The notes under the pieces were generated by a model. The model was not told where the DNA came from and ran no database searches. It saw only the letters and a program-made list of their open reading frames with translations. The translations under genes and the position numbers were made by a program. A stretch of 64,000 nucleotides of DNA, from NCBI RefSeq assembly GCF_001270745.1, contig NZ_KQ434759.1:62001-126000 (forward strand), read 5' to 3'. The stretch is from Jiangella muralis. Lineage in GTDB: Bacteria; Actinomycetota; Actinomycetes; Jiangellales; Jiangellaceae. Below, in pieces: positions 15,285 to 58,745 of the stretch (the stretch's first letter is position 1; every line of letters starts with the position of its first letter).

Positions 15285-16216
15285 TGGGCGCCGGGCACGG
15301 TCACGGCCACGGCCTGCCGCAGGGCGCCACCGCGTCGTACGCGTACCGGCGCCGGATGCAACTGGTGCTGGTGCTCATCGGCGTCGTGATGCTGGTGCAG
15401 CTCGGCGGCGCGTACCTCTCCGGGTCGCTGGCGCTGCTGGCCGACGCCGGTCACATGCTGGCCGACGGTCTCGGCGTCACGCTGGCGCTGCTGGCCACGG
15501 CCATCGCGGCCAAGCCGGCGAACACCGCGCGGACGTTCGGCTGGCAGCGGGCGGAGATCCTGGCGGCGCTGACCAACGGCGTCGTCGTCGGCGTCATCGG
15601 GGTGCTGGCCATCGTCGGCGGCGTCCGGCGGCTCGGCGACCCGGCCGAGATCGAGACCGGCATCATGCTGGTGGTCGCCGTCATCGGCCTGCTGGCGAAC
15701 GTCGTCGCGCTGTTCCTGCTGCGTTCCGGCCAGCGCGAGAGCCTGAACGTGCGCGGCGCGTACCTCGAGGTCATGGGCGACACCCTGGGCTCGCTGGCCG
15801 TCGTCAGCGCGGCCATCGTGATCATGGCGACCGGCTGGGTCCGCGCCGACGCGCTGGCGTCGATGCTGATCGGCGTGCTGATCTTGCCGCGCGCCTGGAT
15901 ACTGCTGCGGGAGGTGTTCGACGTCCTCCTCGAAGCCACCCCCAAGGGCGTCGACCTGAAGGACGTCCGCCGCCACATCATGGAACTCCCCGGCGTCGTC
16001 GACGTGCACGACCTGCATGCCTGGACGATCACCAGCGGCGTCCCGGTGCTGTCCGCGCACGTCGTCATCACCGACTCCGCCGAGCCCGGCTGCGGCGCCG
16101 ACTCCGTCCTCGACGGGCTGCACGAGTGCCTGGCCGGCCACTTCGACATCGAGCACAGCACGTTCCAGATCGAGCCCCTGGGCCACGTCGAGCACGAGCA
16201 CGCCGGCCACGCCTGA
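15284..16216 (+). CDS. Cation diffusion facilitator zinc/cadmium exporter (CzcD-like)
   Basis: This 310-residue inner-membrane metal/proton antiporter has a His-rich N-terminus (MGAGHGHGHGLPQG), six predicted membrane helices, and the CDF transport site HxxxD in TM2 (LLADAGHMLADGLGVTLALL) and again in TM5 (YLEVMGDTLGSLAVV; here the usual His is Glu). The C-terminal cytoplasmic metallochaperone-like domain (MELPGVVDVHDLHAWTITSG) ends in EHEHAGHA. It is co-transcribed with the ArsR gene. Its stop lies 7 bp before the left end of palindromic element 1. Confidence 0.93.
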   Translation: MGAGHGHGHGLPQGATASYAYRRRMQLVLVLIGVVMLVQLGGAYLSGSLALLADAGHMLADGLGVTLALLATAIAAKPANTARTFGWQRAEILAALTNGVVVGVIGVLAIVGGVRRLGDPAEIETGIMLVVAVIGLLANVVALFLLRSGQRESLNVRGAYLEVMGDTLGSLAVVSAAIVIMATGWVRADALASMLIGVLILPRAWILLREVFDVLLEATPKGVDLKDVRRHIMELPGVVDVHDLHAWTITSGVPVLSAHVVITDSAEPGCGADSVLDGLHECLAGHFDIEHSTFQIEPLGHVEHEHAGHA

Positions 16217-16223
16217 CCCCGTC

Positions 16224-16267
16224 CCATGATCATCAAAGAATTGGGGCGTGATCACGCCCCAATTCTT
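16224..16267. repeat. Left terminal inverted repeat of element 1
   Basis: A 44-bp repeat beginning CCATGATCATCAAAGAA. Positions 16236-16267 form a perfect 32-bp palindrome (AAGAATTGGGGCGTGA and its complement) centred on TGATCA, able to form a long hairpin in single-stranded DNA or RNA. It lies 7 bp after the stop of the CDF transporter gene, so it could also terminate transcription from that operon. Confidence 0.85.
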
Positions 16268-16279
16268 GCTCGACCTGGT

Positions 16280-16288
16280 TTGTCCACA
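16280..16288 (+). other. DnaA-box-like TTGTCCACA inside element 1
   Basis: TTGTCCACA matches the actinobacterial DnaA-box consensus and lies 12 bp inside the left repeat, 45 bp upstream of the nuclease start codon. The same nonamer occupies the equivalent place in element 2 (54329-54337). One occurrence would be unremarkable; the shared position is the point of interest. DnaA binding is untested. Confidence 0.5.
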
Positions 16289-16332
16289 GGCCCGATTGGC
16301 GCGACGGCGCCGGCTCACGCAGGCTGGCCCGC

Positions 16333-17292
16333 GTGGGCCTCGACGACCTTCTGGCGGCGCAGTGCGGTGTCGTCAGCCGTGCACAGGCGCTGGCCGCGGG
16401 GCTGACGGTCGACAGGATCAGGTGGTTGGTCGAGTCCGGCCGCTGGCGGCGCGTCCACGCGCACACGTTCGTGACCTTCACCGGGCCGCTGCCGTTCGAG
16501 GCGCAGGTGTGGGCGGCGGTCCTGCGCGCAGGTGCGGGCGCCGTGGCCAGTCACCGCACCGCCGCCTACCTCGACGGCCTGTGCGACGAGCCGGGCCCGG
16601 TCATCCACGTGACCGTGCCGGCCGACAGATACGTCGGCGGCAAGATCGACGGCGTGCGCGTTCACTACGCGCATCGGCTTCCCCGCACCCGTCATCCCGC
16701 CGCGACCCCACCACGCACGCGGGTCGACGAGACCGTGCTCGATCTGGTGGACGTCGCGCCGCATTCGCGTGAGGCCGAGGGCTGGGTGACGGCGGCCTGC
16801 CAGCGCCGCCTCACCACCCCCGAACGGCTCGCCGACGCGCTCGGGCGGCGGAAGAAGATCCGCTGGCGACCCATGACCGAGGCCATGCTCGCCGACGTCG
16901 CGTCCGGAGCCCAGTCGCCGCTGGAGCTGCGCCACCTGCGCCGGGTCGAACGCGCCCACGGCCTGCCCACCGGCCACCGCCAACAACGCATCGCCGGGCA
17001 GCGCGTGATCTGGATCGACGTCGACTACGAGCCCTACCACCTCCGGGTCGAACTCGACGGACGCCTCGGCCACACCGGCGAAGGCCGCTTCCGCGACCAC
17101 CACCGCGACAATCACGCCACCGTCGACGGCCACGCCACGCTGCGCTACGGCCACGCCGACGTGTTCGGTGACCCCTGCGGCGTCGCAGCCGAGCAGGCCC
17201 GCGTTCTCACCGCTCGCGGCTGGACCGGCACCGTCCGCTCCTGCCGACCCGGCTGCCGCGCCACCCTGTTCCATCCAAGAAATGTGGGGTGA
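16333..17292 (+). CDS. AbiEi-like winged-helix protein with DUF559 (Vsr-like) nuclease domain
   Basis: The 319-residue protein starts at GTG 16333. Residues 1-50 resemble the AbiEi antitoxin-type winged helix (LLAAQCGVVSRAQALAAGLT, then FVTFTGPL). The C-terminal region (about 195-285) matches DUF559 proteins, whose fold is related to very-short-patch-repair nucleases: SPLELR (E198), IDVDYEPYHLRVELDGRLGH with D229, E240 and D242 as candidate metal ligands, RDHHRDN, then ATLRYGHADVF. The stop codon lies inside the right inverted repeat. There is no adjacent AbiEii nucleotidyltransferase, so a toxin-antitoxin role is doubtful. A homologue sits in the same setting at 54390-55481. Nuclease activity is inferred. 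Confidence 0.82.
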   Translation: MGLDDLLAAQCGVVSRAQALAAGLTVDRIRWLVESGRWRRVHAHTFVTFTGPLPFEAQVWAAVLRAGAGAVASHRTAAYLDGLCDEPGPVIHVTVPADRYVGGKIDGVRVHYAHRLPRTRHPAATPPRTRVDETVLDLVDVAPHSREAEGWVTAACQRRLTTPERLADALGRRKKIRWRPMTEAMLADVASGAQSPLELRHLRRVERAHGLPTGHRQQRIAGQRVIWIDVDYEPYHLRVELDGRLGHTGEGRFRDHHRDNHATVDGHATLRYGHADVFGDPCGVAAEQARVLTARGWTGTVRSCRPGCRATLFHPRNVG

Positions 17293-17314
17293 TCACGCCC
17301 CGTTTCTTTGATGA

Positions 17315-17320
<6 letters not shown>
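17277..17320. repeat. Right terminal inverted repeat of element 1
   Basis: An inverted 44-bp copy of the left repeat (39/44), ending TTCTTTGATGATCATGG. It contains GTGATCAC at its centre with an imperfect stem. It supplies two stop codons: TGA 17290-17292 for the internal nuclease gene and, on the minus strand, TGA 17317-17315 for the fumarylacetoacetase gene. Confidence 0.85.
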
Positions 17321-18489
<1,169 letters not shown>

Positions 18490-34627: not shown

Positions 34628-34683
34628 CCATGATCATCAACCTTCTCGGCTGTTATAGCAGCCCAAAAGGTTGATGATCATGG
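34628..34683. repeat. Solitary 56-bp palindromic element A
   Basis: CCATGATCATCAACCTT (34628-34644) and its exact complement AAGGTTGATGATCATGG (34667-34683) flank a 22-base core containing a further stem GGCTG...CAGCC. An element of the same length, with identical 17-bp arms and a different core, is at 44035-44090. The first 13 bases match the ends of element 1 at 16224-17320. It lies between two convergent genes and encodes the last 11 codons and stop of the kinase gene. It could work as a two-way terminator; the shared arms point to a dispersed repeat family. Confidence 0.85.
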
Positions 34684-44034: not shown

Positions 44035-44090
44035 CCATGATCATCAACCTTCTGGGTTGCTCTGACGACCAGGAAGGTTGATGATCATGG
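44035..44090. repeat. Solitary 56-bp palindromic element B
   Basis: The arms CCATGATCATCAACCTT (44035-44051) and AAGGTTGATGATCATGG (44074-44090) are identical to those of element A at 34628-34683. The 22-base core differs (CTGGGTTGCTCTGACGACCA and two more bases), with its own CTGG/CCAG pairing. It lies between the PIG-L and sortase genes, and TGA within its TGATCA is the sortase stop codon. Equal length and arms with divergent cores are the mark of a repeat family kept under structural constraint. Confidence 0.85.
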
Positions 44091-52668: not shown

Positions 52669-52736
52669 TCCTGAACAAACGCTGACGATCATGGCCGGCG
52701 GTGGGCGGGATCGCCTTCCGAGAGGATGATCGGAGG

Positions 52737-54281
52737 GTGACGTCTACTGAGTCCGCGCGCTCGTGGTGGCCGCCGGCGCTGGCCGGCGTCGTCGCGCTGG
52801 GCCTCGGGCTGGCCGTCGCCGAGATCGTGGCCGGTGCGCTGGGCCGGGCCGAGACGCCGGTCGTGGCGGTCGGTGAGGAGTTCATCGACCACACCCCGGG
52901 CTGGCTGAAGGACTTCGCCGTCGAGACCTTCGGCACGAACGACAAGACCGTGCTGCTGGCCGGCATGGGCGTGGTGCTGGTGCTGCTCGGCGCGGTGATC
53001 GGGTTGCTCACCGCCCGGAGCAGGGGCATCGGGCTGCTCGCCGCCACCGTCCTGCTGGTGATCGCCGGGCTGGCGGTCAACGCCCGGCCGGACTCCACGA
53101 CGGCCGACCTCATCCCGACGCTCGCCGCCGGCCTGGTCGCGCTGCCGACGCTGGCCTGGCTGGTCGGCAAGGCGGCGCCACCCGCGGCCGCCGGGTCCCT
53201 GCCGGTCACACCGGCGCCCACCCGGCGCGCGTTCCTCACCGCCGCCGGCGTCACCGCCGGCCTGGCCGTTGCCGGCGCCGGGCTCGGCCAGCTGCTCGGC
53301 GCCCGCCGGGCCGGCGTCGAGACCTCCCGCGACGACCTCGCCGCCAGCCTCGACCTCCCGCGGGCCCGCCCGCCGGGCGGCGTCGACCTCACCGTCCCTG
53401 ATGCCGACCCGTGGCGCACCCCGAACCAGCACTTCTACCGCATCGACACCGCGCTGTCCGAACCGCTGGTCCGGGCCGAGGACTGGTCGCTGCGGGTGCA
53501 CGGCATGGTCGAGACCGAGGTGGAGCTGAGCTACGACCAGCTGCTCGCCATGGGCCTGGAGGACCGCTGGCTGACGCTGAACTGCGTCTCCAACGAGGTC
53601 GGCGGCCACCTCATCGGCAACGCGCTGTGGTCCGGCGTGCCGATCGCGGACGTGCTCGCGCTGGCCCGCCCCCAGACCGGCGCCGACGCCGTCCGGTCCC
53701 GCTCGCAGGACGGCTGGACCGCCGGCACCCCGCTCGACGTCCTCACCGACGGCCGCGACGCGTTGCTGGCGGTCGGCATGAACGGCGACCCGCTGCCGCT
53801 CGCGCACGGGTTCCCGGTGCGGATGATCGTGCCCGGCCTGTACGGCTACGTCAGCGCCACGAAGTGGGTGGTCGAACTGGAGGTCACCCGGTTCGCCGAC
53901 TTCGAGGCCTACTGGACGACGCGCGGCTGGGCCGAGAAGGGCCCGGTCAAGGTCGCGTCGCGCATCGACGTCCCGAGCAGCCGCGCCCACGTCGACGCCG
54001 GCACCGTCGCCGTCGCGGGGGTGGCGTGGGCGCAGCACCGCGGCATCGCGGCGGTCCAGGTCCGCGTCGGCGACGGCGACTGGAACGACGCCCGGCTGGC
54101 CGCCGTCCCGAGCACCGACACCTGGCGGCAGTGGGTGTGGGAGTGGGACGCGCAGCCGGGGAAGCACCGGCTGCAGGTCCGCGCCACCACCGCCGACGGC
54201 GAGGTGCAGACGTCCGAGCAGGCGCCGCCCGCCCCTGACGGCGCCTCCGGCTGGCACACCATCGACGTCACCGTCGACTGA
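52737..54281 (+). CDS. Membrane-anchored molybdopterin oxidoreductase (sulfite-oxidase fold)
   Basis: This 514-residue protein has about four N-terminal membrane helices (PALAGVVALGLGLAVAEIVA; TVLLAGMGVVLVLLGAVIGL; GLLAATVLLVIAGLAV; LIPTLAAGLVALPTLAWLVG), a Tat-like TRRAFLTAAGVTAGLAVAGA segment, then the sulfite-oxidase Moco domain. The Mo-ligand Cys is in WLTLNCVSNEVGGHLIGNAL; FPVRMIVPGLYGYVSATKWV follows, and a C-terminal dimerisation domain (AWAQHRGIAAVQVRVGDGDW) completes it. The substrate is unknown; sulfite or oxidised methionine is usual for the fold. GTG 52737 is preceded by AGAGG. Its TGA stop is part of the TGATCATGG at the edge of palindromic element 2. Confidence 0.9.
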   Translation: MTSTESARSWWPPALAGVVALGLGLAVAEIVAGALGRAETPVVAVGEEFIDHTPGWLKDFAVETFGTNDKTVLLAGMGVVLVLLGAVIGLLTARSRGIGLLAATVLLVIAGLAVNARPDSTTADLIPTLAAGLVALPTLAWLVGKAAPPAAAGSLPVTPAPTRRAFLTAAGVTAGLAVAGAGLGQLLGARRAGVETSRDDLAASLDLPRARPPGGVDLTVPDADPWRTPNQHFYRIDTALSEPLVRAEDWSLRVHGMVETEVELSYDQLLAMGLEDRWLTLNCVSNEVGGHLIGNALWSGVPIADVLALARPQTGADAVRSRSQDGWTAGTPLDVLTDGRDALLAVGMNGDPLPLAHGFPVRMIVPGLYGYVSATKWVVELEVTRFADFEAYWTTRGWAEKGPVKVASRIDVPSSRAHVDAGTVAVAGVAWAQHRGIAAVQVRVGDGDWNDARLAAVPSTDTWRQWVWEWDAQPGKHRLQVRATTADGEVQTSEQAPPAPDGASGWHTIDVTVD

Positions 54282-54282
54282 T

Positions 54283-54326
54283 CATGGCGCTCTTTGTGTT
54301 GCCCCAGCAGCAGAAAGAGCGCCATG
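54283..54326. repeat. Left hairpin repeat of element 2
   Basis: CATGGCGCTCTTT (54283-54295) and AAAGAGCGCCATG (54314-54326) form a perfect 13-bp stem around the loop GTGTTGCCCCAGCAGCAG. It overlaps the TGATCATGG that holds the upstream gene's stop codon, so it could also terminate the molybdopterin-enzyme transcript. Confidence 0.85.
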
Positions 54327-54328
54327 AG

Positions 54329-54337
54329 TTGTCCACA
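54329..54337 (+). other. DnaA-box-like TTGTCCACA inside element 2
   Basis: The same nonamer as at 16280-16288, 2 bp inside the left hairpin and 52 bp upstream of the GTG start. Beyond it, both leaders also share GCGCAGGCTGG-like and other GC-rich segments, consistent with common descent of the elements. DnaA binding is untested. Confidence 0.5.
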
Positions 54338-54389
54338 GATCGCTCGCGGGGGCTGGCCGGGCCCTTACCGGTGGCGCAGGCTGGGCGGC

Positions 54390-55481
54390 GTGCCTCACGA
54401 ACGCGCGCGCCGGCTGGCCAGGGTCCAGGACGGCCTGATCACCCGGAAGCAGACGCTCGCCGCCGGGATGTCGCCGGCTGCGCTCGTCCATGCCCTGCGG
54501 CCGGGCGGTCCGTGGCAACGTGTCCTGCGCGGCGTGTTCGCGACCTTCACCGGCCCGCTGTCGCCGCTGCACCGGCTCCGGGCCGCCCGCCTCTACGCAG
54601 GTGACGACGCGCTGGTCACCGGGGCGTGGGCCTGCTGGATGGCGGGCCTCGGCTACGGCCCGCCGCCCGGCGACGGGATCGAGGTGCTGGTGGCCCGCGA
54701 CGTCCGGTTGCACGGGACAGGCTTCGTGGTCGTCAGGCGGACGGTGCGGATGCCTGCGGCGAGTGGCTGGATCGGCCTCGACGACGCCGACGCGCTGCTG
54801 CCGCCGCACGTGGTCCTCGACGAGCTGGCGCCGCGGGCACGGCCGGGCGAGATCCTCATGGTGCCCACAGTGCGCGCCGTCGTCGACGCCGTCACCGTCA
54901 CCGAGCACGCGCCGCCGGACTGGTCGCCAGAGTGCCGGTGCCGCCACGGCTGCCGGGAGCCCGGTGCCCACCGGACCCGGGCCTTGCGGAACGTCCGGGC
55001 GCTGATGTGCGAGGCCGTGCAACGCCGGAAGACGGGGCCCGCCGCATTGCGCACCGAGGTCGATGCGGCCTGGCCGCGCCGCTCAGAGCTGGCGAAAGTG
55101 GCGCTGGCGGACATCGAGGCGGGCTGCCGGTCGGCGCCGGAGTGCGAACTGCGGGACCTGGTGCGCGGCAGCCGGATCCTGCCCGAGCCGCGGTGGAACC
55201 ATCCGCTGCCGGGTGTGCGCGGGATCGTGCCGGACGCGTGCTGGCCGGAGCGGCGGCTGATCGTCGAGGTCGACTCGCGCGCGTTCCACGGGTTCGGCGA
55301 CGCGCCGGAGCGGACCGAGCACCGGCGGGCCCGGCTGGCCGCGCTGGGCTGGGTGGTGCTGCCGGTGTCGCCGGCCCGGCTGCGCACGGACCCGGGCGGG
55401 GTGCTGGCGCAGATCGAGGCCGCGTATCTCGCCACTCATGGCGCTCTTTCTGCTGCCAGAGCCGCACAAAGAGCGCCATGA
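54390..55481 (+). CDS. AbiEi-like winged-helix protein with DUF559 (Vsr-like) nuclease domain, copy 2
   Basis: A 363-residue homologue of the element 1 protein. The N-terminus aligns clearly: DGLITRKQTLAAGMS and VLRGVFATFTGPLSPL, compared with CGVVSRAQALAAGLT and FVTFTGPL. A Cys/His cluster CRCRHGCREPGAH (about 182-194) is absent from copy 1. The nuclease region has SAPECELRDLVRG (E251, E253), VPDACWPERRLIVEVDSRAF (D282, E293, D295) and HRRARLAALGWVVLPVSPAR, matching DUF559. The last 14 residues come from the right hairpin. GTG 54390 aligns with the start of copy 1. Nuclease activity is inferred. Confidence 0.82.
   Translation: MPHERARRLARVQDGLITRKQTLAAGMSPAALVHALRPGGPWQRVLRGVFATFTGPLSPLHRLRAARLYAGDDALVTGAWACWMAGLGYGPPPGDGIEVLVARDVRLHGTGFVVVRRTVRMPAASGWIGLDDADALLPPHVVLDELAPRARPGEILMVPTVRAVVDAVTVTEHAPPDWSPECRCRHGCREPGAHRTRALRNVRALMCEAVQRRKTGPAALRTEVDAAWPRRSELAKVALADIEAGCRSAPECELRDLVRGSRILPEPRWNHPLPGVRGIVPDACWPERRLIVEVDSRAFHGFGDAPERTEHRRARLAALGWVVLPVSPARLRTDPGGVLAQIEAAYLATHGALSAARAAQRAP
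55437..55480. repeat. Right hairpin repeat of element 2
   Basis: CATGGCGCTCTTT (55437-55449) and AAAGAGCGCCATG (55468-55480) enclose the loop CTGCTGCCAGAGCCGCAC, an inverted version of the left loop. TGA at 55479-55481 ends the nuclease gene, and the convergent GH43 gene stops 2 bp beyond. Confidence 0.85.
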
Positions 55482-55482
55482 C

Positions 55483-56478
55483 CTACGGCACGACGTCCAC
55501 GACGGCGCGGGGGCCGTCGAGCACGGGGACGCCGTCCTCCCAGGTCACCTCGGTGAGCCACATCGTGCGGCCGGGCAGCGCCGAGCCGACGGAGTCGGGC
55601 GGCCAGGCGTGGTGCACCATCCAAGTGCGGCCGTCCTTCTCGACCAGCATGCAGTGTCCCGGCCCGGCCGCGTCGTCGCTGGACGCCAGGATGGGCGACG
55701 ACGACGGCTTCGCGCACGGCCCGAGCGGGCCCTCGCAGACGGCGTAGCCGACGGCGTACTCGGCGCGGTCGTACGCGTTGGCCGAGTAGAACAGGTAGTA
55801 GGTGCCGTCGCGCAGCCAGAGGAACGGCGCCTCGACCAGCGTGCCCTCCCACGGCTGGTCCTGCTTGATCAGCTGGACGGGCGTGCCCACCAGCGACAGC
55901 CCGTCCGGCGAGAGCGGCTGCGCGTAGATCCAGGTGTCGACGCCGATCGCGTTGCCGTCGTTCTTCCACAGCAGGTACCGGGTGCCGTCGGCGTCGGTGA
56001 ACGGGCTGGCGTCGATCGAGCCGCCCTCGCCGGCCTGGCAGATCAGCGGCTCGGCGGACTCGTCGACGAACGGGCCGGCCGGTGACGTCGCGACCGCCCG
56101 GCCCACGCACTGCCGCCCCGACGCCGTTCCCAGCGCCGTGTAGTAGAGGACGTACCGGTCCGGCCCGTGCACCGCGATCTCCGGCGCCCACGTCCGCCCG
56201 CCGGTCACCCACGGCGCCAGCACCGGCATCGAGTCGCCGGCCGGCTCCCATGTCACCAGGTCCGGCGACGTCATGACCGGCACGTTCCCGGCCCGCGAGT
56301 TCGTCGCGTAGGCGTAGTAGGTGCCGCCGGCCTCGATGACGGCGGGGTCGGGGAAGTCGCGGTCGACGACGGGGTTGGTGAAGCCCACGGGCTGCTCCTC
56401 TTCGACGGGGTCGGGCTCGGCGGTGCCGCAGGCGGCCAGGACGACGAGCGCCGTCCCGGCCGCCAGCAGCAGCCTCAT
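55483..56478 (-). CDS. GH43 family glycosidase lipoprotein
   Basis: This 331-residue surface lipoprotein has a signal peptide and lipobox (ALVVLAACGTAEP, Cys about 17), then a single GH43 five-bladed propeller. The catalytic base Asp is in VDRDFPDPAVIEAGGTYYAY, the pKa-modulating Asp in GGSIDASPFTDADG and the acid Glu in TLVEAPFLWLRDGTYYLFYS. GH43 enzymes cleave arabinan, arabinoxylan or xylo-oligosaccharides. It is the last gene of the arabinose-polysaccharide operon, and its start overlaps the upstream GH43 stop (ATGA). Confidence 0.92.
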   Translation of the reverse strand: MRLLLAAGTALVVLAACGTAEPDPVEEEQPVGFTNPVVDRDFPDPAVIEAGGTYYAYATNSRAGNVPVMTSPDLVTWEPAGDSMPVLAPWVTGGRTWAPEIAVHGPDRYVLYYTALGTASGRQCVGRAVATSPAGPFVDESAEPLICQAGEGGSIDASPFTDADGTRYLLWKNDGNAIGVDTWIYAQPLSPDGLSLVGTPVQLIKQDQPWEGTLVEAPFLWLRDGTYYLFYSANAYDRAEYAVGYAVCEGPLGPCAKPSSSPILASSDDAAGPGHCMLVEKDGRTWMVHHAWPPDSVGSALPGRTMWLTEVTWEDGVPVLDGPRAVVDVVP

Positions 56479-58745
56479 CGAACCTCGGACAGGCGGAACC
56501 AGTCGAAGGTCGCGACGGTCGCGGGCGTGGCGCCGCCGCCGGCGTACACGCCGATCTGCGGCGAGGTGTCCGCCGGCAGCGTCCACGTCGCGCCCCACCG
56601 CCAGGTCTCGCCGTCGCGCGACGACGCCGACCGGTACTGGTGCTCGCCGGTCTCCGGGTCGGTGGTGTGGTGAAGGCGTAGCCACATGGTCGACGCCACC
56701 GGACCGCCGAGGTGGGCGCCCCAGCGCAGCGCGCCGTTCTCCTTCAGCTCCTTGCCGAACTCGACCTGCCGGGTGCCCCAGATCGCGACGTCGCCGAGGC
56801 GCAGCAAGCTGTCGTCGTCGACCCGGACGATCAGCCCGGCCTGCTGGTAGTTGCGGATGGTGCCGGAGCCGAGGTCGAGGTGCAGCTTCGTCTCGGCGAT
56901 CCAGTCGCCCTCCGGCGGCGTGCGCAGCAGCAGCGGCCCGGTGTTGCCGGCGCCGACGACGTCGACGGAGGCCAGCGGCCAGGTCAGCGCGCCGTCGCCC
57001 GCGGTCACCGTCGACGACGGCCGGACCCACTCCCAGCCCGCGCCGAGCGCCGGGTCGTCGAACTGCTCGTCGACCAGGACGTCGCCCGCCTCGGGCTCGT
57101 CCACCCGCTTGGTCACGGGGTCATGCGCCGCGACGACGGTGAGGTTGTCGACCTGCGCCTCGCCACCGGACGCGGCCAGCGTGACGGGGCGCGGCTTGGC
57201 CGCGCCGCGGGGCAGGTCGACGGCGACCTCGGCGTCGGCGTCGCCGAGCCGGCTCTCCGCCAGCCGGGCCACGGCCCGCCCGTCGCGGACCTCGACCGAC
57301 AGCGCCGTCCACTCGTCGCCGTCGTAGCGCGACGGCAGCGGCGCGGAGTCGGACTCGACGCTGCGGCCCTGTGTGGACGTGACGGTCAGCGTCCGATCAG
57401 CGGCGTCGACGGTGACCGTGACGCCGTTGCGCCCGGACCGCGCGACCCCGACCGTGACGTCGCCGGACACCCGCACGTCCGCCTCGACCCGCACGTCCTT
57501 CGGCGCGCTCCGCGCCGTCCGCGCCTCGCCGGACAGCACCGCGACGTCGCCGCCGTCGCCGGTCGCGTCGGTGCCGGCCGTCCAGTCGCCGACCAGCGCC
57601 GCGTTCGAGGCCGGCGCCCCGCTCGCGATCCCGAGCGAACTGGCTGTGACGGGGGCGGGCTGCGGCGTGTCGGACGGGCCCGCGCCGGCCCGCGCGACCG
57701 GCCAGCCGTCGATCCAGTCCAGCCGGTCGACGAGGGTCGGACGCTCGTTGATGCCGCCGGGCGCGTCCAGCCAGGCGTCGTTCCGGTCGATCGCGTGGTA
57801 GACGATCTGGTCCTGCCCGGACACGTCGGTGACGATCGTGTGGTGGCCGACGCCGATCCAGCGGTTGCCGTTCTGCGCCAGCACCTGGGTGCCGCCGACT
57901 CGCGAGTCCAGCATCGAGACGCCCTCGTGGTCGACGAACGGGCCGAGCGGGCTCTTCGAGCGTCCGGCGTAGACGCTGTACCCGGTGACCGGGCCCGCGC
58001 AGCAGTTCGCCGACGACGCCGTCAGGTAGTACCAGCCGTCCCGCTCGACCACGAACGAGCCCTCGTACCGGTCGCCGACGCTCACCTGGGTGGGCGAGCC
58101 GACGGCGCGCATCCCGGTCTCGTCCAGCTCGGTCACCCACAGGCCGCCGTGGAAGCCGCCGAAGTACAGGTACCGCTTGCCGTCCGACGCCGAGAGCAGC
58201 GCCGGGTCGATGGTGTTGAAGTAGTTGCCGTCGCCGGTCGGCCGCGGCGCCACCACGGGCCCGCCCGAGTCGGTCCACGGCCCGGCCGGCGTCGGCGCCG
58301 TCGCGGCCCCGATGGCGTAGTTCCACTGGCCGGGCTCGGCGACGGTGTCGGTGACGGTGTAGTACATGACGTACTGGCCGTCGACGTAGCGGATGTCCGG
58401 CGCCCAGTAGAACGAGGTGCTGGTGCTCCAGGCCGGCCGGTCCGCCTCCTCGAACACCGTGCCGAGGTACTCCCAGTCGGCGAAGTCGCGGGAGCGGGCG
58501 ATGTGCATGAGCCCGAACTCGCTCGGCGCCTCGTGCAGCGGGTCGCTGGTCGCGTACAGGTACCACCAGCCGTCCTTGCCGCGGATCACGGCCGGGTCGG
58601 CGTAGGTGTCGGAGAATTCGCTCGAGATCGGGTTCTGGGTGACGGGGTCAGCTGCGGGCTCGGCGGTGGCGGCCGCAGCCGTGGCCGGCAGCGCCAGCAC
58701 GACGGCGGCGATGCCGGCGAGGAACGTACGACGCACGGGGATCAT
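56475..58745 (-). CDS. Secreted multidomain GH43 arabinosidase/xylosidase
   Basis: This 756-residue secreted enzyme has a signal peptide (RRTFLAGIAAVVLALPATAA). A GH43 propeller spans about 40-340, with base Asp in FSDTYADPAVIRGKDGWWYL, middle Asp in NTIDPALLSASDG and acid Glu in YEGSFVVERDGWYYLTASS. A middle beta domain (about 380-560) and a C-terminal jelly-roll region (VDEQFDDPALGAGWEWVRPS to IGVYAGGGATPATVATFDWF) resembling DUF1349/concanavalin-type modules follow. It probably releases arabinose side chains or oligomers outside the cell for the ABC importer encoded upstream. It is coupled to the permease gene by ATGA. Confidence 0.92.
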   Translation of the reverse strand: MIPVRRTFLAGIAAVVLALPATAAAATAEPAADPVTQNPISSEFSDTYADPAVIRGKDGWWYLYATSDPLHEAPSEFGLMHIARSRDFADWEYLGTVFEEADRPAWSTSTSFYWAPDIRYVDGQYVMYYTVTDTVAEPGQWNYAIGAATAPTPAGPWTDSGGPVVAPRPTGDGNYFNTIDPALLSASDGKRYLYFGGFHGGLWVTELDETGMRAVGSPTQVSVGDRYEGSFVVERDGWYYLTASSANCCAGPVTGYSVYAGRSKSPLGPFVDHEGVSMLDSRVGGTQVLAQNGNRWIGVGHHTIVTDVSGQDQIVYHAIDRNDAWLDAPGGINERPTLVDRLDWIDGWPVARAGAGPSDTPQPAPVTASSLGIASGAPASNAALVGDWTAGTDATGDGGDVAVLSGEARTARSAPKDVRVEADVRVSGDVTVGVARSGRNGVTVTVDAADRTLTVTSTQGRSVESDSAPLPSRYDGDEWTALSVEVRDGRAVARLAESRLGDADAEVAVDLPRGAAKPRPVTLAASGGEAQVDNLTVVAAHDPVTKRVDEPEAGDVLVDEQFDDPALGAGWEWVRPSSTVTAGDGALTWPLASVDVVGAGNTGPLLLRTPPEGDWIAETKLHLDLGSGTIRNYQQAGLIVRVDDDSLLRLGDVAIWGTRQVEFGKELKENGALRWGAHLGGPVASTMWLRLHHTTDPETGEHQYRSASSRDGETWRWGATWTLPADTSPQIGVYAGGGATPATVATFDWFRLSEVR

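Follow-up and report, generated by a model that had tools for sequence, protein, structure and literature searches.

The window analyzed here is a 64,000-nucleotide stretch of the genome of Jiangella muralis, which is G000 in our sample of 12 genomes of the genus (G000-G011). It holds two elements in which a nuclease gene lies between palindromes, as well as solitary palindromes of the element-1 type (Table 1). In element 2, the TGA of the left neighbor directly abuts the start of the left palindrome, and the ATG at 54324 of the nuclease gene is located inside that palindrome. At the other end, the TGA of the nuclease gene (55479-55481) is formed by the end of the right palindrome, which stops 1 base short of the convergent right neighbor's stop codon. 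The DUF559 ORF is the sole credible gene between the palindromes, as stated by a first-pass annotation of this DNA, which had also noted the overlap of the repeats with its stop codon.

Table 1. Features of the window, with positions counted from its first nucleotide
Feature	Position	Strand	Remarks
Element 1, nuclease gene	16216..17328	+	e1 subfamily; between palindromes of ATGATCATC type
Solitary palindrome S1	34628..34683	.	e1 type
Solitary palindrome S2	44035..44090	.	e1 type
Left neighbor (context)	52701..54281	+	Protein with Oxidored_molyb domain
Element 2, left palindrome	54282..54327	.	46 nt; 14-nt perfect arms TCATGGCGCTCTTT, 18-nt loop
Tip core GCCCCAGC, left palindrome	54301..54308	.	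Fits GYYNNRRC
Element 2, DUF559/EDxHD nuclease gene	54324..55481	+	Alternative starts ATG 54324, GTG 54390; predicted AbiEi-like N-terminal domain
Element 2, right palindrome	55436..55481	.	46 nt; 14-nt arms, 18-nt loop; overlaps nuclease stop codon
Tip core GCCAGAGC, right palindrome	55455..55462	.	
Right neighbor (context)	55483..57030	-	Convergent ORF; stop codon 55483-55485

The same annotation had described the palindromes as two self-complementary 44-bp repeats with an 18-base loop and 39/44 identity in inverted orientation. These 44-mers are indeed present (54283-54326 and 55437-55480), each forming part of a 46-nt hairpin with perfect arms. Their inverted arrangement is less clear-cut: it is favored by a 23-nt exact stretch, but direct identity is 38/44 and thus barely distinguishable, and because each copy is itself palindromic, the term "inverted" is hardly decidable for this pair. 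Of hairpins scoring at least 14, the window has seven, including two that belong to other kinds, versus 0.25 per 64 kb expected from second-order Markov sequence. The arm CATGGCGCTCTTT, with up to 2 mismatches allowed, has four occurrences in the window, where 0.48 are expected, and all of them lie within the element-2 hairpins. The repeat had further been called unrelated in sequence to that of element 1. This applies to the stems, which differ, but not to a degenerate tip that is common to many copies of all types.

We examined the encoded protein by profile and structure comparison. Its Pfam DUF559 match falls just below the cut-off (20.4 vs 20.6 bits) and its AbiEi_4 match is sub-threshold; across the family, Pfam matches comprise DUF559, MTES_1575 and AbiEi_4, plus one stray in one member. 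PADLOC AbiEi models matched 20 of 20 aligned proteins, an NCBIfam search of the nuclease returned no match, and domain searches of the nuclease proteins found no transposase or integrase domain. Foldseek comparison of an AlphaFold2 model of the window protein (pLDDT 83) retrieved 6y8q, an AbiEi antitoxin (E 1.9e-4); 3r3p, the I-Bth0305I catalytic domain (E 1e-3 and 3.7e-3; TM 0.80 and 0.82 relative to the target); and 3hrl (E 0.04). The structure model for e1 is weaker (pTM 0.59). Residues E273, E275, D304, H322, and D326 show no variation among 20 proteins and, in our own assignment, fit the EDxHD motif. The protein is therefore predicted to combine an AbiEi-like winged helix with an EDxHD nuclease domain of the I-Bth0305I/Vsr-like kind. 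Judging from dN/dS values of 0.17-0.27 in 12 of the 13 pairs tried and of 0.37 in the 13th, a paralogous pair, the nuclease genes are under purifying selection.

A protein search revealed related nuclease genes in all 12 genomes of the genus. We extracted stretches of mostly 10-11 kb around the matches. Five weaker places were omitted, for two of which shorter loci were used. The resulting set comprises 81 genes or remnants with a match, 69 of which appear intact. Subfamily e1 denotes genes like that of window element 1 and e2 those like that of element 2; another three PF04480 genes in the window genome (L050-L052) matched neither and were left out. Further family members occur in Phytoactinopolyspora, Haloactinopolyspora, and MAGs, and among 79 genomes sampled from the class, 56 have PF04480 matches.

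In the genus sample, hairpins scoring at least 10 lie on both sides of 43 of the 81 genes, the other 38 being without a clear hairpin pair. The two hairpins of one gene resemble each other far more than those of other genes, with a median similarity of 0.83 to the own partner versus 0.19 to other genes, or 0.23 when the comparison is confined to the remaining genes of that subfamily in the genome concerned. The own partner is the best match for 27 of the 43 genes and among the top three for 36, and none of 2000 within-subfamily permutations reached the observed mean flank similarity. The palindromes accordingly belong to the gene that they adjoin. The extracted 833,583 bp contain 125 hairpins scoring at least 14, of which 92 are located at nuclease gene ends and 33 elsewhere. 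Relative orientation within the 43 pairs is direct in 23, inverted in 13, and tied in 7, so that an always inverted arrangement can be rejected as a law. A separate case is one orthologous locus at which the relative orientation differs between species, being direct in G009 (L063; 53 direct vs 39 inverted) and inverted in G002 (L077; 49 inverted vs 33 direct); here, one of the palindromes seems to have inverted in situ. In a number of e1 and e2 genes, as at window positions 55437-55481, the palindrome also encodes the last residues of the nuclease, with HDHQ from CATGATCATCAA as one example, and the C-termini consequently vary with palindrome type.

Outside the genus, the pairing is less regular. 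At 21 loci from other genera, 17 of the 22 hairpins scoring at least 12 lie at nuclease gene ends, but score-12 hairpins occur on both sides in only 3 of these loci. We also considered palindrome flanks as a general rule for DUF559 genes and rejected it: in a class-level set of 30 loci, 9 of which were dropped as short or cut, none of the remaining 21 has hairpins scoring at least 12 on both sides, and such hairpins are found on the left only in 4 and on the right only in 2.

The first-pass annotation had suggested a cognate palindrome for every nuclease lineage, and comparison with nuclease phylogeny supports this. On an e2 tree of 33 proteins, the 27 typed genes carry eight palindrome types, assigned by hand from the hairpin sequences and hence partly subjective, and these types require seven changes, the minimum possible number. 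Protein identity and hairpin similarity are likewise correlated in Mantel tests, with values of 0.52 for e2 (16 genes; 0/1000 permutations) and 0.39 for e1 (22 genes; 1/1000 permutations). Locus and type are partly confounded, as seven loci on the same e2 tree require six changes. Locus A10, however, holds three palindrome types and B9 two, and the type TGAGCGTCT is present at two loci, A10 and S. Different lineages and orientations occupy one locus: at A10, G004 carries a nuclease lineage different from that of its relatives G000 and G010, and the gene lies in opposite orientations, in five species each. The close relatives G001 and G011 differ in hairpin type, the broken G011 gene being absent from the tree. 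The type TTGAGGGATC has many copies in G001, yet none of the typed nucleases of that genome is of this type.

The palindromes are about 42-64 bp long and have type-specific outer arms, whereas different stems often carry the common degenerate tip GYYNNRRC. This tip core occurs in 29 of 37 e2 flanks, 20 of 55 e1 flanks, 58 of 112 solitary e1 copies, and 8 of 17 hairpins from other genera, as opposed to 0/33 and 0/5 hairpins of other kinds and 0.8% of random 8-mers; it is missing in many e1 copies. The search pattern for e1 fixed the arm ends only and left stem positions 11-16 free. At these positions, pairing is nonetheless Watson-Crick in 90-96% and G-T in 0-3%. In our reading, such strict symmetry of the arms points to a dimer on DNA in duplex or cruciform form. 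According to a review (PMC3943268), I-Bth0305I dimerizes on a target nearly 60 bp long, which is about the size of the Jiangella palindromes. T-G and C-A occur often at tip positions 1, 2, 4, and 5 but are far from universal, and we do not claim a Vsr-like T-G mismatch role at the tip. GTAG is found within 10 nt of the ends in 5/172 cases for flanking and 0/54 for solitary e1/e2 palindromes, with 1.4% expected at random. For the window type, it is present at 4 of 18 ends and thus in 4 of the 9 copies examined, two of which are orthologous; these are the right palindrome of the window, where GTAG lies within 55482-55491 and overlaps the TAG stop codon of the neighbor, and copies at L328, L332, and L335.

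Palindromes also occur alone, away from nuclease genes. The e1 pattern ATGATCATCN{15,45}GATGATCAT has 74 copies in G000 and 9-56 in the other 11 genomes, nuclease-flanking copies included, with 0 for a reversed-pattern control; nearly all copies among the matches listed are 52 nt long. The e2 pattern yields 0-25 copies per genome, all of 48 nt and again including nuclease-flanking copies, likewise with 0 for the control. Solitary copies of the window-type hairpin had been proposed as a check on the cognate-palindrome idea. An exact pattern found no copy outside the pair in the own genome, but a conclusion that solitary copies are lacking had to be rejected, as this pattern was too strict. With one free base per arm, the search gave 4 copies in G000, 3 in G001, 1 in G004, 1 in G008, and 2 in G009, whereas the remaining 7 genomes and the control gave 0. 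Two of the four G000 copies are solitary and those of G004 and G009 flank the gene, which leaves few solitary copies: 2 in G000, 3 in G001, and 1 in G008. The G008 copy and one G001 copy are located where the gene of element 2 is missing from the orthologous locus.

The solitary copies are alike in the palindrome only. When 19 of them were compared (the first 15 of the 74 e1 copies in G000 and 4 of window type), 93 of 94 hairpin-centered matches were at most 85 nt long, which identifies the hairpin as the repeated unit. An exception had to be made for G002, in which near-identical copies had looked like direct proof of hairpin spread. All 11 that were fetched (L338-L348) are e2-type hairpins inside a multi-copy repeat of up to ~390 bp that spans about -200 to +190 around the hairpin in most copies; in L338, likeness to the other copies stops ~57 nt past the hairpin start. 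This is a larger mobile repeat carrying the palindrome, and 11 of the 25 e2-pattern copies of G002, which hitchhike in it, should not be taken as independent. A test of whether the nuclease nearest to a solitary e1 copy is from its own genome gave mixed results (25/50 in G000, 9/39 in G005, 2/10 in G004, 0/13 in G009). In G001, the same hairpin occurs as a doublet at L283 and at L286, with spacings of 158 and 142 bp, which resembles REP clusters; G011 has one hairpin copy at the place of L286.

We analyzed the gene context of 31 hairpin loci, 27 of them not beside a listed nuclease and 4 beside one. The flanking genes are convergent at 20, tandem at 10, and divergent at 1, and most of the hairpins lie within ~20 nt of a stop codon according to a simple GC3-based gene call. 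Such placement is what makes it conceivable that the hairpins are bidirectional terminators of convergent genes, with the nuclease gene a chance passenger between two of them. Terminators need a fold and not a sequence, yet the arms match across the flanks of one gene and differ between genes; the near absence of G-T pairs at the free e1 stem positions, the lack of score-12 hairpins on both sides of the 21 class-level DUF559 loci from other actinobacteria, and the absence of S2 from orthologous junctions also speak against this explanation, which we regard as unlikely. The palindromes may act second-hand as terminators.

Species differ in whether solitary copies, whole elements, or one flank are present. 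S2 is absent at the orthologous junction in all 8 relatives in which both flanks were found, and S1 was not found at the orthologous site in the 2 relatives with both flanks. Three places are common to G001 (12 regions) and its close relative G011 (8 of the 9 solitary places listed). At the place corresponding to S2 (window 44035-44090), G004 and G010 (L189, L195) carry another hairpin family, TTTGCAATGAGCACC..., in tandem in G004.

The locus of element 2 holds the gene in G000, G003, G004, and G009, with one stop in G009 and in decayed form, without the left hairpin, in G004. In G008 and G001 there is no gene and a single hairpin of the same type at the junction, and in G011 there is neither. 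Other sequence without the window-type hairpin occupies the locus in G010 and G006, the flanks are ~2.8-2.9 kb apart in G002 and G007, and only the left flank was found in G005. The filled locus carries two whole palindromes and the gene-less allele one (G008, G001) or none (G011). At a second locus, D7, the element is present in seven genomes, the junction is clean in G000 (27 nt) and G010 (18 nt), where 7 nt are expected, and G003, G006, and G007 have other sequence.

A discrete hairpin-gene-hairpin unit that is present as a whole or cleanly absent between species could be taken for a cut-and-paste transposon, with the hairpins as terminal inverted repeats and the DUF559 protein as transposase. 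The dispersed unit, however, is one hairpin and not a two-ended MITE, direct pairs are no rarer than inverted ones, and the nuclease proteins lack a recognizable transposase or integrase domain, which makes this origin very unlikely in our estimation. AbiEi antitoxins bind inverted repeats. Together with the PADLOC matches, this raises the alternative that the palindromes are operators bound by the AbiEi-like domain that regulate the gene itself or its neighbors, the nuclease serving in defense or repair. One palindrome, however, sits at the 3' end of the gene, and most of the solitary ones examined follow the stop codons of other genes; these are poor places for operators, and we consider this role highly improbable.

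In our assessment, element 2 is probably a single copy of a REP-like selfish system that occurs in Jiangellaceae, consists of two parts, and is run by a homing-type nuclease, cleavage and mobility being the inferred parts of this account. The first part would be the nuclease gene, which joins an AbiEi-like winged-helix DNA-binding domain to an EDxHD catalytic domain, and the second the palindrome that the nuclease would read, with lineage-specific outer arms and often the common tip GYYNNRRC. The gene resides between two copies of its own palindrome, and further copies occur alone, mostly near 3' gene ends. A nuclease dimer might bind the two arms and cut near the tip. Repair of the cut, by recombination or end joining, could then bring the palindrome, by copying or by transfer, to new or vacated sites, at times together with the gene as a whole hairpin-gene-hairpin cassette. 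Where the palindromes are direct repeats, they could also recombine with each other, delete the gene, and leave one palindrome behind, which fits the element-2 locus of G008 and G001.

This arrangement parallels REPs and their RAYTs, to which the first-pass annotation had compared element 2. RAYTs are tyrosine transposases related to IS200/IS605 and are described as always flanked by two inverted REPs with a GTAG-like tag (PMC2817692, PMC3733652). As in these REPtrons, and in TIRtrons, the gene lies between two palindrome copies, which applies to the window gene as well as to the 43 paired genes, the palindrome is also dispersed alone outside genes, a genome can contain more than one pair of enzyme and palindrome, the two phylogenies agree, and doublets are seen (for RAYTs, PMC2817692). 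The analogy holds at this level but does not extend to three features of REP/RAYT systems, as the enzyme is an unrelated EDxHD nuclease rather than a tyrosine transposase, pairs occur in both orientations without regular inversion, and a regular GTAG tag is lacking. The palindromes are also longer, and the 9-74 element-1-type copies per genome, flanking ones included, compare with more than 100 per genome that are given as usual for REPs.

Other known systems share single components. EDxHD homing endonucleases of the I-Bth0305I family have the same predicted catalytic fold (3r3p) with conserved E, D, H, and D and, in the account given by PMC3943268, a similarly long target that is read by a dimer. 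Here, by contrast, there is no intron or intein, the filled site has whole palindromes on both sides and does not appear to be split, the DNA-binding domain is AbiEi-like, and the palindrome itself is dispersed. AbiEi antitoxins share the N-terminal winged-helix domain, which in Jiangella is fused to a nuclease, and no AbiEii toxin but the DUF559 ORF only is found between the palindromes. Vsr-like DUF559 proteins such as Caulobacter VsrA have the DUF559 domain and Vsr-like fold but differ from the palindrome-flanked cassette described here. VsrA is reported to trigger a DNA damage response in the absence of a cytosine methylase (PMC12907096), a precedent that could point to a selfish or defense nuclease of the restriction kind, for which the palindromes would be marks with no role in spreading them. 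Paired flanks and the dispersal of the hairpin alone would then go unexplained, and we rate this as the least probable of the readings considered.

Returning to a selfish system that spreads its palindrome, its plan looks like the known one of REP/RAYT on an unrelated enzyme, of a type not known to spread its own palindrome; our literature search, with subscription papers mostly outside its scope, found nothing linking DUF559 to such palindromes. A more far-reaching version, which we hold tentatively and at slightly under an even chance, is that REP-like systems evolved twice, and that here a homing-type EDxHD nuclease spreads its own palindromic site. The outer arms would be recognized through a lineage-specific interface, the conserved nuclease domain would cut at the common GYYNNRRC tip, and cassettes, because the site is nearly symmetric, would enter in either orientation, with competing lineages displacing one another at a locus and co-evolution toward new private enzyme-site pairs. 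If true, REP-like systems can arise from an unrelated enzyme. DUF559 is common and still bears the Pfam name "unknown function", and a nuclease that spreads palindromes would give part of these proteins a role. The approximately eight e2 enzyme-site pairs would constitute a natural series for the change of nuclease specificity while the target spreads along.

Two further kinds of repeat were noted near DUF559 genes. In the vicinity of locus A10, a conserved hairpin, CGAGCGGACGGCGACC..., lies ~2.7-3.9 kb from the nuclease and has no tip core; it was seen at L057, L070, L090, L093, L096, L108, and L116 and is perhaps a terminator. In the class-level set, a looser repeat comparison reached p of at most 0.01 at 8 of 21 loci, including L315, a GC-rich stretch that we distrust. 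The DUF559 genes at L325, L301, L300, L323, L306, L322, and L307, from other actinobacterial families, have repeats common to both flanks; these are of another design, and some are palindromic with longer loops.
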